Assembly: GCA_949284615.1 (NCBI GenBank)
Contig: CASDWL010000067.1
Span: 1-14,893, forward strand
Direction of reading: 5' to 3'
DNA from: an uncultured Mycoplasma sp.
Lineage (GTDB): Bacteria; Bacillota_I; Bacilli_A; Mycoplasmatales; Metamycoplasmataceae
Length of the DNA: 14,893 nucleotides
Under the pieces are notes generated by a model. The model was not told where the DNA came from. It worked only from the letters and a program-made list of their open reading frames with translations, and ran no database searches. This document shows positions 1,485 to 14,893 of this stretch, one piece after another (the stretch's first letter is position 1; every line of letters begins with the position of its first letter). Position numbers and translations under genes: made by a program.

Positions 1485-2660
<1,176 letters not shown>

Positions 2661-2669
2661 TAGGTCATT

Positions 2670-3803
2670 CTACCCTTCTAAGGCATCAATTTTTGTATGT
2701 TCTTTTACCAAGAATTCTTTTGTTTTTTTAGAATCAAAAATATTTTTAGATTTTTGAACATTATTTAAAATCTTTCTAATACATTTTTGAATCTCATCAG
2801 AATTTTTAATTAATTTGTTTTCATCAACATTAATAGCCATGATAGATACTTGACAATATTTTACAAAATCAAAATGTCCTACATAACTTAAAACATAAAA
2901 TTGTTTCCACTCACCAACTACTAATTTTAAGATTGTTTCCAATTTATTCATAATCTCATCTGTAAAAAATGGCATCTTAACAGAAACAATGAATGTATTT
3001 GATGCTTCAAAAGCTGCCGCAAACATTGCTGAAGATAAAGCTTGAATTAATGCTAATTCAACATTGTCATTAGGATCTTCAGAATATCCAATTGATGAAA
3101 CAATTTTAGTCTCAAAATTTCTTTTAGTTTTATAAAATAAAGCTTTTGTTTTAGAAAAAGCATCTGGATTTCTTTTAGGATCTAAAAATGGAGACACAAA
3201 CAAATCAATTAAATTATTTATATATAAATTTGCATAATAATTTCTTGAAGACACAGTTGCATTCTTGTAAGTTGATACAATAACTTCTTCTCTTATAGGA
3301 ATATAAAGTTGTCTTCTTTTCTTCATTGATTTAATCATCTTTTCATATATTTTTTTGGCTTCAAATGATTGAATAAAGTTCTCTAAAACAAAGTGGAAAG
3401 TGAAAACATCATTTTTATCTAAAATGCTCATCAATTCTGAAACATAATCTAAATTTGCTAAACTTGATGATTTATATACAATAACTGCAATATCCATTTC
3501 TTTAATTCGAGCAATTAAATCACGTCCTTGTGATGAATGTAAAAATGCTGATGGTCTCATAATTCTTTCTTCATCTTTTTTAGATTCCATTCATGAATAA
3601 TATATCCCATTAAAATGATTTGCTGATTTTTGATTTAGAAAAGGATTTGATGAACCTATATGAATAAATTGAGCATATTCAAATGTATTTCTAGAAAAAT
3701 CTTCAAAAATATTTAAGTCCGAATCACTAAAATAAATTACTGAGATTCTAGGAACATAAAATCTTTTAAAATTTTTAGTTTGAATAATTCTTTTGCTAGG
3801 CAT
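2670..3803 (-). CDS. Putative divergent FtsZ/tubulin-fold protein lacking the GTPase signature
   Basis: A 377-aa protein. One TGA (Trp71, near 3593) splits it under the standard code. The ATG at 3803 is preceded by a strong AAAGGAG, which fixes the start. By eye the whole chain aligns with FtsZ: ISVIYFSDSDLNIF (20-33) sits where FtsZ has IKVIGVGGGGNNAV, FIHIGSSNPFL (46-56) at the FIAVNTDAQAL position, DIAVIVYKSSSLANLD (104-119) at DMVFVTAGMGGGTGTG, FVLENFIQSFEAKK at VVTRPFTFEGRKR, LYIPIREEVI at LIVIPNDRIL, SIGYSEDPNDNVELALIQAL (from about 237) at GIGxATGENRAxEAAKxAI, and QVSIMAINVDEN at the last core strand. Every Gly-rich nucleotide loop is lost, so GTP hydrolysis is unlikely. It forms a single-gene unit downstream of the trxB terminator and converges on mnmA. 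The family call is inference from pattern and strand order; no search was run. It is otherwise a hypothetical protein. Confidence 0.55.
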
Positions 3804-3814
3804 TTTTTCTCCTT
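3797..3814 (-). promoter_or_regulatory. Shine-Dalgarno of the FtsZ-like gene
   Basis: Minus-strand AAAGGAG followed by about five A residues and the ATG at 3803-3801. This is among the strongest ribosome-binding sites in the window. It supports the start and argues that the gene is expressed. Confidence 0.7.
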
Positions 3815-3825
3815 TAAATTAAATC

Positions 3826-3862
3826 AAAAATAAAAGAATGATATTTAAAAATTATATCATTC
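3826..3862 (-). terminator. Rho-independent terminator after trxB
   Basis: On the minus strand a perfect 9-bp stem (GAATGATAT with ATATCATTC, plus-strand arms 3836-3844 and 3854-3862) encloses a 9-base loop and is followed by the T-rich run TTTTATTTTT. It lies 10 bases past the trxB stop and ends the rpoB-rpoC-trxB transcript before the FtsZ-like gene. Confidence 0.75.
3851..3856 (-). promoter_or_regulatory. Possible -10 box (TATAAT) for the FtsZ-like gene
   Basis: A perfect minus-strand TATAAT overlaps the upstream arm and loop of the trxB terminator. It would start transcripts about 40 bases before the ATG at 3803. No good -35 element is seen, and AT-rich sequence makes chance matches common, so this is tentative. 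Confidence 0.3.
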
Positions 3863-3871
3863 AATTGTATA

Positions 3872-9028
<5,157 letters not shown>

Positions 9029-9029
<1 letters not shown>

Positions 9030-12000
9030 TATTTGCTACCTCCTATTTTATTATTTTTTTTATCTGATTCTTTTTCATGAATATCTAATTTAATACCTAA
9101 ACCTCTTAATTCATATGCAAGAACATTGAATGATTCTGGTGTTCCTGGTGTTGGAAGAGTTGATCCTGTTGCTAATGCATTATAAAGTTTGTTTCTACCA
9201 GAAATATTATCTGATTTATATGTTAATAATTCCTGTAAGATGTTAGTTGCTCCATGAGCTTCAATAGCTCATGTTTCCATTTCACCAAATCTTTGACCCC
9301 CATTTTGAGATTTACCTCCTAATGGTTGTTGTGTAATTAATGAATATGGACCCACACTTCTTGCATGCATTTTATCATCAACCATATGTGATAATTTCAA
9401 CATATACATAACTCCAACTGCTACATCATTATCAATAACTTCACCATTAATTGGATTGTATAATTTTTGTTTTCCTGAAACTGGTAATTTTGCTTCTTTT
9501 AAAACATTTTGAATATCATCAATTTTTACTCCATCAAAAGAAGGACAAGCAAATTTAACATTTAATTTTTTACCTGCATAACCTAAATGTAATTCTAAAA
9601 TTTGACCTAAGTTCATCCTTGAAGGAACACCTTGTGGGTTTAAACAAATATCTATTGGTGTACCATCTTCTAAATGTGGCATATCTTCTTCAGGTAGAAT
9701 AACTGAAATAACACCTTTATTTCCATGACGTCCAGCCAATTTATCCCCAACTTTTATTTTTCTTTTTTGAGCTATATAAACTTTAACAATTTTCTCTATA
9801 CCATCTTCAAGAACATCACCTTGATCTCTTGATAATATTTCAACATTAATAACTGTTCCTGCTTGACCATGTTTTACTTTTAAAGATGTATCTTGTAAAT
9901 TAGAATCACGAGAACCAAAAATAGCTGCCATTAATTTTTCTTCAGGTGTAGGGTTATGTTCACCTTTTGGAGATACTCTTCCTACTAAAATATCACCAGC
10001 TGATACTTCTGAACCTACAATTACAATTCCATTTTCATCTAAAAATCTTTTTGATGCAGTTGAAACATTAGGTATTTCTGCTGTTAATTTATCATTACCA
10101 ATTTTTGATGATCTAAATTGAATTATTTGTTCTTCAATATGAATTGATGTTAAAACATCATCTTTAACTAGTCTTTCATTAATGATGATAGCATCCTCAA
10201 AGTTATAACCATTTCATGTTGAAAATGCAACTAATAAATTTTTACCTAATGCCATTTCACCATCTTTAAATGAAGATCCATCAGTTAATAAATCATTTTC
10301 TTTAACATGATCATTTAATTTAACAATAGGAATTTGATGAATTAAAGTACCTTGATTTGATTTTTCAAATTGTTTTAAATTGTAAACAATTATTTCATCA
10401 CTATTTTCAGTTTTAATTTTAATTTTTGTAGAATCTACAAAAATAACTTGTCCAGATTTTTTAGCTTTTAAATTACCAGCTGAAAAATTAGCAATAGCAC
10501 TTTCAATTCCTGTACCAACAATAGGAGCTTCAGCATTTAACAATGAAACTGCTTGACGTTGCATGTTTGAACCCATCAAGGCTCTATTGGCATCATCATT
10601 TTCTAAAAATGGAATAGCTGATGCGGCAATAGATGTCATTTGTCTAGATGAAACATCTATAAAGTCCACCTCTTCAGGTTTTACAATAATAAAGTCATGA
10701 TTTTTTCTAACTGTTACTTCTTCATTTACAATTTTGTTATCAACAATTGTTACAGTTGATTGAGCGAATGTAAATCCAAATTCTTCTGAAGCAATTAAAT
10801 AAACAGGTTCAGAATAATCAACTACTCCTTTGTTAACTCTAAAATATGGAGTTTCTAAAAATCCATATTCATTAATTCTTGCATAAACAGCTAAGTTTAA
10901 AATTAATCCAATGTTTGGTCCCTCAGGTGTTTCAATAGGACAAATTCTTCCATAATGAGTAGGATGGACATCACGAACCTCAAATTGAGCTGTTTCTCTA
11001 TTTAGACCTCCAGGTCCTAAAGATGTAATTCTTCTTTTATTTGAAATCTCTGATAAAGGATTTATTTGATCCATGAATTGAGAAAGTTTTGATGAGTTAA
11101 AGAATGATTTAAATTGATTATATACAGGCTTATTATTTGTAACATTTTTAGGTGTTATTTTATCAATTTCTTTAGATGCCATTCTTTCTTTAGTATTTCT
11201 CTCAACTTTAGTTAAAGCAATTTTGAATTGATTTTGTAATAACTCACCTATTAATATTATTCTTTTGTTAATCAGTGAATCTGGATCATCATCTAATCCT
11301 ATACCTTCTATTAAATTGAAATAATATGAAATTGATGCAACAATATCTGAAATTAACAATATTAAATCATCATCTTGTTGATTATTTCCAATAACTAATG
11401 TAGGTTCTTCATTTTTTTGATATTTTTGCTCATTTGCATAAACTTTAATCATTGCAACTTTGATTTTTGTTTTTAATTTTGGATTATTATTAAGCATTTT
11501 TCCATAAACAAGTTCTGGATTAATATTTGGAATATTGGTTAATTTTAAAACTTTATCTCTAAATAAACGATCAATTAATTGAGCATCTTTAGCACTAAAT
11601 TTGTGTCCTTTTTTAAAAATAACTTGACCTGCTACATATTCATCATTTGTTTCATCAGCAATTAAATCTTCAGCTAAAATAGTATCAATAATACGACTTG
11701 ATAATTTTAATTTATTATTTAAAACATATCTACCTGTTCTTGATAAATTGTATCTTCTTTCATTAAAGAATAAATTTGGTAATAAAGAATTTACAGATTC
11801 TTTAGTTACTCTATCTCCTTTTCTAATTATTTGGTAAATAGCTTCTGTTGAGCTGTATTGGTCTTGAGTTTTTTCTCTTTTTAAAGTTTCTTTCATTACA
11901 TTTGAATTCCCAAATAAACTTATTATTGTTTCTTTGTCAAATCCAAAAGCTCTTAAAAATGTTGATAAAAATATTGATTTTTGTTTATTAATTTTAACTT

Positions 12001-12583
12001 TTACTGAATCAATAGTATTACCTGTAACTCTATGGAATATTTCAATTCAAGCACCTAATTTAGGAATAAATTCTAATTTATTAAACAAATCATCTGTTTG
12101 CTTATTTCTAACAGAAAGTCCATAATAAGCTCCTGCAGATCTAATTAATTGTGAAACAATAATTTTTTCAGAACCATTAATAACAAAAGAAGCTGCTGAA
12201 GTCATTAAAGGAATTTCGCCAAATAAAATTTCATCTTCTTTGATTTCTCCTGTTTCCACAACAGTTTTTCTTAATTTAATAAAAATTTTAGCTGAATATG
12301 TAGATCCTTTTTGTTTTGCTTCCTGAATAGCTGTATATTCATTTTTAGGTTTTTGAATTTTTACTGATTTTTTTACATAATCAATAATAATTTTGTCATT
12401 ATTAGATTTAATCGGATATATTTCATTAAAAGTTTCTTCTAAACCTTTTTTTAATAATCAATCAAATGAATCTTTTTGCATTTGTAAAAGATCTTGAATT
12501 TCCAATTCATGTTTTGTATTTGAATAGTTTCTTCTTTCTGTAATAGGACCAAATTTTTGAATTCTATAATTGCTTTTTTGCAC
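9029..12583 (-). CDS. rpoB: DNA-directed RNA polymerase subunit beta
   Basis: An 1184-aa second-largest RNA polymerase subunit, close to the Bacillus length. Landmarks: [20 protein letters not shown], then GPGGLNRE and [20 protein letters not shown] (rifampicin-pocket region, around residues 500-560), [20 protein letters not shown] (around 795), [15 protein letters not shown] with active-site Lys948 and Lys956, and [20 protein letters not shown] near the C-terminus. TGA codons are Trp (for example in TWNGYN and ETWAIEA). The start is taken as GTG at 12583: it follows AAGGGG by 6 bases, there is no in-frame ATG before the conserved N-terminal region, and it gives [24 protein letters not shown] one codon earlier is the alternative. 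The rifampicin-pocket position equal to E. coli His526 is Asn515. It is the first gene of the rpoB-rpoC-trxB unit. Confidence 0.97.
9038..9044 (-). promoter_or_regulatory. Shine-Dalgarno of rpoC
   Basis: A consensus AGGAGGT on the minus strand, inside the last codons of rpoB (encoding part of KIGGSK) and 8 bases from the rpoC ATG. It fixes the rpoC start and, with the TAATG overlap, suggests matched beta and beta' synthesis. Confidence 0.9.
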
Positions 12584-12595
12584 CAAATACCCCTT
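12581..12595 (-). promoter_or_regulatory. Ribosome-binding site and GTG start of rpoB
   Basis: Minus-strand AAGGGG, a 6-base spacer (TATTTG), then GTG. The adjacent TTG would leave only 3 bases, so GTG is preferred. Confidence 0.65.
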
Positions 12596-12834: not shown

Positions 12835-12909
12835 GCCGACATAGCTCAGCGGTAGAGCAACTGGCTGTTAACCAGTGGGTCACAAGTTCGATCCTTGTTG
12901 TCGGCGCCA
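12835..12909 (+). tRNA. tRNA-Asn (GTT)
   Basis: 75 bases. Acceptor GCCGACA pairs with TGTCGGC, discriminator G, encoded CCA. The anticodon stem ACTGG/CCAGT holds a loop with anticodon GTT. The T-loop reads GTTCGATCC. Confidence 0.96.
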
Positions 12910-12912
12910 TTT

Positions 12913-12988
12913 GGCCTATTGGTGAAGCGGTTAACACACATGGTTTTCATCCATGGATTCACGGGTTCGAGTCCCGTATAGGTCACCA
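12913..12988 (+). tRNA. tRNA-Glu (TTC)
   Basis: 76 bases. Acceptor GGCCTAT pairs with ATAGGTC (one G-T pair), encoded CCA. Anticodon stem CATGG/CCATG has loop TTTTCAT and anticodon TTC. It is a known type of substrate for MnmA, encoded at 1509-2660. Three bases separate it from tRNA-Asn. Confidence 0.96.
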
Positions 12989-12994
12989 TTTTAA

Positions 12995-13070
12995 GGAAGT
13001 TTAGCTCAGTTGGGAGAGCATTGCCCTTACAAGGCAAGGGTCATGGGTTCGAGTCCCCTAACTTCCACCA
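12995..13070 (+). tRNA. tRNA-Val (TAC)
   Basis: 76 bases. Acceptor GGAAGTT pairs with AACTTCC, encoded CCA. Anticodon stem TTGCC/GGCAA has loop CTTACAA and anticodon TAC. T-loop GGGTTCGAGTCCC is canonical. Confidence 0.96.
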
Positions 13071-13072
13071 TT

Positions 13073-13148
13073 GCCGTTTTAGCTCAGTTGGCAGAGCAAC
13101 TGACTTGTAATCAGTAGGTCGTAGGTTCAAGTCCTATAAACGGCACCA
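13073..13148 (+). tRNA. tRNA-Thr (TGT)
   Basis: 76 bases. The acceptor arm starts GCCGTTT and ends AAACGGC before A-CCA. Anticodon stem ACTGA/TCAGT has loop CTTGTAA and anticodon TGT. It is only two bases from tRNA-Val. Confidence 0.96.
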
Positions 13149-13150
13149 TT

Positions 13151-13226
<76 letters not shown>

Positions 13227-13232
13227 TTTGTT

Positions 13233-13243
13233 GAGAGGCACCA
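13233..13243 (+). other. Possible remnant of a tRNA 3' end
   Basis: GAGAGGCACCA followed by TTTTT, in the 41-base gap between tRNA-Lys and tRNA-Leu, resembles the 3' acceptor end plus CCA seen after each neighbouring tRNA. No complete cloverleaf surrounds it. It could be the trace of a deleted tRNA gene, or chance. Confidence 0.3.
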
Positions 13244-13267
13244 TTTTTATTTTTGTAAGAATTACAT

Positions 13268-13351
13268 GCGCGAGTGGTGAAATTGGCAGACACGCAAGTT
13301 TTAGGCACTTGTACCTTTGGTGTGAGGGTTCGAGTCCCTCCTCGCGCACCA
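13268..13351 (+). tRNA. tRNA-Leu (TAG)
   Basis: 84 bases with a long variable arm, as in class II tRNAs. Acceptor GCGCGAG pairs with CTCGCGC, encoded CCA. Anticodon stem CAAGT/ACTTG has loop TTTAGGC and anticodon TAG. Last gene of the cluster, before the terminator at 13431. Confidence 0.95.
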
Positions 13352-13505: not shown

Positions 13506-14816
13506 TTATAGTAATCTTCCTTGACCTTCTGTATCAACTAAAAATCAATTTAAACTTCATTTATTATAATGATCTCTATATCAACTAGCATTTACTATAA
13601 TAATATATGTTGGACTTATAACATTTGTTGTAACAACTTGATTTCAAAATCTATTTGTATCTCCATCAATATCAAAAAGATCAACTTCTAATTTTGATGT
13701 ATCTGATGAGTTAAGGATAATAGATGATGAGTTAAAAGCTCCTTTATCTATTTTATTAATAGTTTTAGGTAAATGAATGATATTTTCTGGATTATTACCT
13801 AAAATATTAAAATTTAAATTATTTCATCCAAATGCATATTCTCCAATATAACTTATATTAGAATATTGTAAATTTAACCCATTATTTGTTATTCTATTGT
13901 GAGAAAAAGCTTCTTTTTCTATTGATTTAATAGATGATTTTCATGTTATAGAAGAAATTTGATTGTTTTTAAAAGTAGCTGCTGAAATTGATTCTATATC
14001 TCCCATAACACTAAGATCAATAACTTCTATATAATTGTTTTCAAAACATGAAACACCTAAAAAAGTTGTTTTTGAACTTAAATATAATAGTTTAATATGA
14101 CTATTAGCAAAAGCATAATCCTCAATTTTAGTTATGCTAGTTTTACTTAAATCTAATCTATATAAATCATTGTTAGCAAAACATCCTATACCTAAAGATG
14201 TGATTTTTGAATCCATGTATAAATATGTTATTGTATTTGATCTAAATGAATAATCAGGAACATCTTTTATATTAGTCTCTCTAAGATCAACTGTACCAAT
14301 CCTATTGTTTTCAAAACAAGAAACACCTAAAGATGCAATTTTTGAATCTCAATTAACATATGAAATTCTATTATTTTTAAAAGCATAATCAGGAATGTTA
14401 GTTAATTTTGTATTTCTAAGATCTATTGAATCTATAGCATTATTTGAAAAAGAACTTTTACCAATTTCTCTCAAAGAATTTGGTAAAGTTAAAGTTTTAA
14501 TATTGTTATTATTAAAAGCATTATTACCAATTTTTGTAATCATCACATTATCATCAAAAGTTAAACTAGCAATCTCTTTATTTTCAAATGCACCATCTGC
14601 AATTTTTGTTATAGTTCTTGATATAAATCTATTACCATTTTGTTTAATTTCATATTGAGGTTTAATAACAATATCTTTTGAAAATCCTGTATATCCAAGA
14701 ATAGTATCACCTTTAATACGAAAACCATCAACTGATGTGTATTCTTGAGTAGAAATAGCATCATTTAGTGGATCAGGATTATTAAATAAAAAATTTAATG
14801 ATTTTAAAATTCCCAA
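13506..14816 (-). CDS. BspA-like leucine-rich-repeat protein (LRR_5 type), 5' end uncertain
   Basis: A 436-aa reading frame from a TTG at 14816 to TAA at 13506, continuous once several TGA codons (Trp in VNWDSK, ITWKSS, FGWNN, RFWNQ, ASWYRD, NKWSLNWF) are accepted. After about 50 residues it is built of 22-23-residue leucine-rich repeats of the form IxxIxxxAFxxNxIxxLxL, as in BspA/Treponema surface LRR proteins. Repeats alternate between an AF type (IPDYAFKNNRIS) and a CF type (LGVSCFENNRIG), giving a 45-aa unit. A non-repeat C-terminal domain of about 110 aa follows. LRR proteins of this class are usually extracellular and bind host or neighbour proteins. The frame has no signal sequence and no good start: the TTG lacks a Shine-Dalgarno and the frame stays open to the window edge. 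The missing anchor appears in another frame just upstream (next entry), so the gene may be frameshifted. Product and activity are inferred from repeats only. Confidence 0.75.
14034..14438 (-). repeat. Tandem 135-bp units inside the LRR gene
   Basis: The plus-strand marker ATTGTT(T/A)...CAAAAC..GAAACACC-like recurs at 14034, 14169, 14304 and (more diverged) 14439, exactly 135 bases apart. Each unit encodes one AF plus one CF leucine-rich repeat (45 aa). The nearest unit outside (about 13896) breaks the exact spacing. This indicates expansion by unit duplication, with copies now diverged by point changes. Confidence 0.75.
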
Positions 14817-14878
14817 ATTGTAATTACAATCGCAACACTTAATAAAATTATGAAAGGTTGGGGTTGTGATTTTTTTAT
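14807..14878 (-). pseudogene. Out-of-frame start and membrane anchor of the LRR gene
   Basis: On the minus strand, GGAAGGA (14893-14887) is followed 8 bases later by ATA at 14878 and a 24-codon frame: KKSQPQP then FIILLSVAIVITIWEF, stopping at 14806-14804. Two Lys followed by a hydrophobic stretch is a typical signal or anchor sequence. It is one frame off the LRR frame. One extra G in the GGG at 14812-14814 would join them as ...VITIWGILKSLNFLF, a full-length transmembrane helix. The ATA could be a rare start or a mutated ATG. The window ends at 14893, so a start further upstream cannot be excluded. Confidence 0.45.
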
Positions 14879-14893
14879 ATAAAAAATCCTTCC

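Follow-up and report, generated by a model that had tools for sequence, protein, structure and literature searches.

A P42-family gliding protein gene with a predicted FtsZ fold and altered GTP-binding loops in an uncultured Mycoplasma that carries the gliding G1-ATPase

An FtsZ ancestry for P42, a protein of the Mycoplasma mobile gliding machinery that we take to be MMOB1050, was reportedly proposed by Tulum in 2014. Ohtani and Miyata are said to have found in 2007 that P42 of M. mobile, produced as a recombinant protein, is active on nucleoside triphosphates and hydrolyses them, which would contradict the label 'non-GTPase'. The family is modeled in NCBIfam as NF045859, which corresponds to gliding protein Gli42 of M. 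mobile, and the current model, as given in a passage of PMC12994834, has gliding powered by a G1-ATPase. In Tulum et al. 2020 (PMC7052211), this motor was known from four species, and gli42 and gli123 were not detected by BLAST in M. agassizii and M. testudineum.

We analyzed a stretch of 14,893 nucleotides (the window) from the genome of an uncultured Mycoplasma sp., in which a long minus-strand open reading frame runs from an ATG at 3803 to a stop codon at 2670-2672, giving 377 codons. This gene, its signals and its neighbors are as follows.

2670..3803, minus strand: P42 (Gli42) gene, an open reading frame of 377 aa under genetic code 4; 418 bits to NF045859 (glide_P42), cut-off 280
3591..3593, minus strand: TGA codon for Trp71, the sole TGA in the P42 frame; Trp in 28/28 aligned sequences, the window's own included
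3809..3815, minus strand: Shine-Dalgarno sequence AAAGGAG, read directly, five bases 5' of the P42 ATG
3872..4807, minus strand: trxB-like thioredoxin reductase gene, directly upstream of P42 on the same strand; TIGR01292 314 bits, below the cut-off of 343
4788-9029 and 9029-12586, minus strand: rpoC and rpoB, on the same strand as P42; recognized from their translations alone
1509..2660, plus strand: mnmA, convergent with P42; TIGR00420 414 bits, cut-off 237

The presence of Trp at the TGA column in all 28 aligned sequences supports the use of code 4. A reading of this DNA made earlier from its letters alone (the sequence-only reading) had described a 377-aa frame with TGA as Trp behind a strong Shine-Dalgarno sequence, and both descriptions hold. 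Between trxB and P42, positions 3836-3862 of the minus strand form an A-T-rich hairpin followed by a T-rich stretch that could be a weak terminator; the hairpin is not unusual against shuffled sequences (z −1.5), and terminator prediction called none in this gap. Elsewhere in the window, a PhoU-like gene at 793-1473 on the plus strand (Pfam PhoU 30 bits, over the cut-off; TIGR02135 70 bits, below the cut-off of 130) sits behind an apparent phosphate ABC ATPase gene. Six tRNA genes (Asn, Glu, Val, Thr, Lys, Leu) lie upstream of rpoB on the opposite strand (12835-13351, plus), and a BspA-type leucine-rich-repeat (LRR) protein (13506-14891, minus; Pfam LRR_5, E 1.5e-42) runs off the window end.

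The window protein matches the NCBIfam model "gliding machinery protein P42" over residues 12-370 with 417.9 bits, and on this sequence evidence the gene is, with near certainty, P42/Gli42, a family that already has a name. The M. pulmonis protein P0146 carries the same annotation. A protein search returned 23 further relatives that are 43-82% identical to the window protein; the sole named entry among them is a hypothetical protein from a Mycoplasma metagenome-assembled genome. Identity to P42 of M. pulmonis, M. agassizii and M. testudineum is 21-22%. The window protein resembles known P42 in its model score over the cut-off, its predicted fold, its length and its lost GTP loops, and the window genome likewise holds the gliding G1-ATPase. 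It differs in that the gene adjoins trxB and mnmA rather than gli521, with no gliding surface gene adjacent in the window (an associated feature, not a defining one), and in that Gli349 was not found in its genus.

The sequence-only reading had asked how far the gene is conserved. Across 320 genomes of the order, the P42 model scores over its cut-off in 14, which belong to two genera only: ten of the 12 genomes of the window genus (g1, which includes the window genome, G000, and three metagenome-assembled Mycoplasma genomes) and all four of a second genus (g13) that takes in M. pulmonis (G121), M. agassizii (G119) and M. testudineum (G122). One further g1 genome, G134, has a P42 gene that breaks off where its contig ends (267 bits), and in another, G125 (84% complete), P42 was not found. 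The gene had been read as intact, which is right, and it is conserved across both genera. It is conceivable that P42 is a decaying, functionless duplicate of ftsZ, as the loss of its nucleotide loops might imply. However, 55 columns are invariant over 22 P42 sequences with a mean column identity of 62%, no stop other than TGA interrupts P42 in the 14/14 genomes with a match over the cut-off, and the gene is kept in two genera; at the sequence level, this conservation leaves decay close to refuted.

From the predicted structures, it is near certain that P42 has the FtsZ/tubulin fold, as had been proposed by eye. P42 can be aligned with FtsZ over 337 profile columns, and M. pulmonis P0146, modeled separately, shows the same fold (pLDDT 76.5) with FtsZ as its best Foldseek hits (E 4e-17). 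Compared with FtsZ, tubulins, BtubAB and OdinTubulin give lower Z scores against P42, their solved chains are longer, and P42 differs from them in having no canonical GTP loops. The relation between P42 and FtsZ escapes single-sequence searches: Pfam gave nothing over the cut-off for the window protein and no tubulin match (PF00091), the Pfam tubulin model matched only the separate ftsZ in the window genome and not P42, and searches of PDB sequences, one of them with a P42 family profile, returned nothing relevant. In a tree, P42 and FtsZ fall on opposite sides of one branch with support of 100/100; the tree comes with warnings about the long branch of the window genome's FtsZ and about deviating composition in eight of the FtsZ rows. 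P42 has its whole fold in common with FtsZ and forms a separate clade.

Whether the genome has a canonical ftsZ besides this gene had also been posed as a check. A separate ftsZ is present: it is on contig C60 (L001:1498-2646), is the only Pfam-tubulin gene in the genome, and follows an open reading frame that is an ftsA-like candidate by position alone. This FtsZ is itself drifted (T2 NTD changed to DNN, T4 GFGGKTGT, T7 NLDFKVSW), and no other FtsZ in the tree has so long a branch. Another member of the genus, G128, has a normal ftsZ.

The GTP site was compared in an alignment of 28 P42 and 13 FtsZ sequences, a set in which M. mobile P42 is not included. Four positions of the window protein are of interest.

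3711..3734, minus strand: T1-loop position, residues 24-31, YFSDSDLN where FtsZ has GVGGxGNN (alignment with 13 FtsZ)
3447..3473, minus strand: T4-loop position, residues 111-119, KSSSLANLD where FtsZ has GMGGGTGTG (alignment with 13 FtsZ)
3288..3290, minus strand: Glu172, Glu in 28/28 P42; Asn (T6) in 13/13 FtsZ
3243..3245, minus strand: Arg187, Arg in 28/28 P42; Ser, Ala or Ile in the FtsZ column

The two loop replacements are the same as those given in the sequence-only reading (GVGG-G-NN to YFSDSDLN and GGGTGTG to SSSLANL), and the loss of glycines extends to the family. At the four T1 glycine positions, 6/112 cells are kept in the 28 P42 sequences, versus 52/52 in FtsZ; five of the six retained glycines belong to the four g13 sequences and the sixth to P0021. 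At the six T4 positions, the count is 0/168 versus 75/78. The T7 region (NxDxAD in FtsZ) reads NPDAFSK in the window protein and NPxLY in the four g13 sequences, neither of which matches the FtsZ catalytic motif; the register here is uncertain by one residue, and the second Asp is missing either way. In sum, the T1, T3 and T4 glycines, the T6 Asn and the T7 Asp residues of FtsZ are missing or altered in P42. Judged from these sequences and the predicted fold, canonical GTP binding and hydrolysis across the P42 family is very unlikely.

In FtsZ, the T6 Asn contacts the nucleotide base. That Glu172 stands at this site and is invariant in 28/28 P42 sequences, as is Arg187, would fit a protein that has kept nucleotide binding and hydrolysis by means of a remodeled pocket and so energizes or regulates gliding, and the NTPase activity reportedly found for M. 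mobile P42 in 2007 points the same way. However, not one of the six T4 glycines is present in any of the 28 sequences, no glycine-rich replacement occurs there, and the current model already assigns the power for gliding to the G1-ATPase. We consider a remodeled pocket of this kind unlikely, if well worth keeping in mind.

The genomes that contain P42 also contain a motor. The gamma-like subunit of the G1-ATPase, MMOB1630, scores over its cut-off in 16/320 genomes of the order, namely 12/12 of g1 and 4/4 of g13. Among these 16, P42 is over its cut-off in 14, truncated in one (G134) and not found in one (G125), versus 0/304 in the order's genomes where MMOB1630 is not over its cut-off. This co-occurrence is the strongest functional hint that we have, yet it is weak as functional proof because it involves two genera and perhaps one inheritance event. 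Fisher tests, which take no account of relatedness, carry no weight here. In the window genome, contig C15 carries, in order, a 311-aa MMOB1620-like gene, MMOB1630 (388 bits, cut-off 250), MMOB1640 (237, cut-off 100), MMOB1660 (824, cut-off 600) and MMOB1670 (1170, cut-off 850), and with four NCBIfam models over their cut-offs the Type 2 gliding G1-ATPase is present in this genome. Furthermore, PF00006 matches suggest a second F1-like alpha/beta pair in 9/9 g1 genomes searched (on two contigs in G125). Proteins of five Metamycoplasmataceae metagenome-assembled genomes (P0053, P0055, P0058, P0063 and P0064) already bear the MMOB1670-family label from the NCBI pipeline, and in the literature searched we found no report of this gliding motor in uncultured mycoplasmas. 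Genes for lipoprotein-like proteins of ~1140-1200 aa lie right behind the G1-ATPase beta gene of g1 genomes, or one gene behind it (L099:1062-4622, L098:15839-19246 and L100:13414-17001); they are candidate surface parts, and an NCBIfam scan of two of them gave no match.

The distribution of P42 also bears on the proposal, made in the sequence-only reading, that the protein serves FtsZ filaments as a non-hydrolysing partner or capping subunit, which would place it in division. The common fold, the separate ftsZ of the window genome and the normal ftsZ of G128 would all suit such a partner. However, P42 tracks the gliding G1-ATPase and not FtsZ, and in eight other genera of the family the weak matches to the P42 model fall on an FtsZ gene, with P42 over the cut-off in none. 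Capping of FtsZ is highly improbable because M. mobile, where P42 was described, has P42 and is reported, in a passage of PMC8475190, to be without ftsZ.

Other parts of the gliding machine are unevenly recovered in the window genus. The NCBIfam model for Gli349 is over its cut-off in 0/12 g1 genomes and only in the four g13 genomes. Among the matches listed, the model finds short pieces of LRR regions in 11/12 g1 genomes, and a two-row Gli349 profile run on G128 again matched chiefly in an LRR region. LRR is thus the part of Gli349 that matches in g1, and the window has an LRR protein of its own. A passage of a salmon-gut study (PMC10886447) places Gli349, within that study's clade, only in the reference M. 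mobile. The MMOB1670 tree gives no settled order for M. mobile, M. pulmonis, M. agassizii/M. testudineum and g1, so that a loss of Gli349 in g1 and its never having been there cannot be told apart.

The apparent absence of Gli349 could also be a false negative, by analogy with our probe for Gli521. This first probe, the N-terminal 1400 residues of the M. pulmonis protein, gave matches in 4/135 genomes and in 0/12 of g1. We rejected the idea that g1 is without Gli521: G128 has an open reading frame of 4534 aa (L118/L119, C1:139075-152676) that scores 570 bits (E 3e-172) against a profile of three Gli521 sequences and is a diverged Gli521, and a C-terminal probe found the protein in 8/12 g1 genomes, making the N-terminal result a false negative. 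Gli521 was not found in G000, G130, G131 and G134 with the N-terminal probe, two C-terminal probes and the profile. The profile did recover M. testudineum, which the single-sequence C-terminal probe had missed, and absence of Gli521 is therefore not proven; the assembly of the window genome has 91 contigs and is 90% complete. In G124, G125 and G133, Gli521-related pieces are scattered over several places, some of them at contig starts. We likewise dropped the view that MMOB1610 and MMOB1650 are missing from g1. The motor clusters that were read do not contain them, but weak homologues lie outside: an MMOB1610-like membrane part in 7/12 genomes, the window genome included (contig C14, E 2e-20), and an MMOB1650-like protein in 5/12, one of these marginal.

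No Gli123-like gene was found in G128, the g1 genome examined for it. In the second genus, P42 is over the cut-off in M. agassizii and M. testudineum (463 and 476 bits), which corrects the non-detection of 2020. In both species, it lies directly behind a gene related over its full length to an 1128-aa M. pulmonis protein (24% identity, E 8e-65 and 3e-69), which from its place and size is probably Gli123, and P42 and gli349 are on different contigs. The genes before P42 are located as follows.

L037:16894 to L038:467, and L036:9056-12775: Gli123-like gene directly before P42 in M. agassizii/M. testudineum

Taken together, these results lead us to prefer a reading of P42 as a paralogue of FtsZ that serves the M. 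mobile-type gliding machine as a structural subunit or linker without GTPase activity, and we give this reading as a whole a probability of roughly 60%. P42 would have arisen by one old duplication of ftsZ and would have lost GTP-driven polymerization, with the FtsZ fold kept for its surfaces and the nucleotide switch gone. It would be a soluble protein on the cytoplasmic side, placed between the G1-ATPase motor and the membrane or surface part; the P42 orthologue of G128 has no hydrophobic stretch in a simple hydropathy scan. The earlier suggestion of a repurposed tubulin scaffold in wall-less cells survives here as a broad idea, while the named family, P42/Gli42, had been missed. Counted against the preferred reading are the position of P42 in the window, which is not beside gliding genes, the failure to find Gli521 in the window genome with four probes, the lack of a Gli349 match over the cut-off in all 12 g1 genomes, the NTPase activity reported in 2007 and the restriction of the co-occurrence to two genera.

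For the window genus itself, the machine may comprise the motor, often a Gli521 crank, and surface legs other than Gli349. More tentatively, and with some doubt, we suggest that these mycoplasmas run M. mobile-type gliding or a related surface-moving machine without Gli349, with other surface proteins, perhaps LRR proteins, as its feet, and with P42 as a nucleotide-free core part of tubulin fold on the side of the motor rather than the legs. The basis for this is the gamma-like subunit in 12/12 genomes, P42 in 11/12 (one truncated), diverged Gli521 in 8/12 and the MMOB1610-like part in 7/12.

What is new here is the presence of P42 in little-known mycoplasmas that carry the matching motor; the family itself is not new. 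P42 belongs to a unique bacterial motor in which its part is poorly understood, and from the family-wide loss of the GTP site we learn which functions are improbable for it. Mutation of the invariant Glu172 and Arg187 offers a test of the NTPase activity that was reportedly observed. Furthermore, P42 accompanies the motor even in genomes that gave no Gli349 match over the cut-off, which sets it apart from the leg protein and hints at the half of the machine for which it may work. P42 also marks a little-known genus with an M. mobile-type motor, one that adds 12 genomes to the known carriers of this motor.
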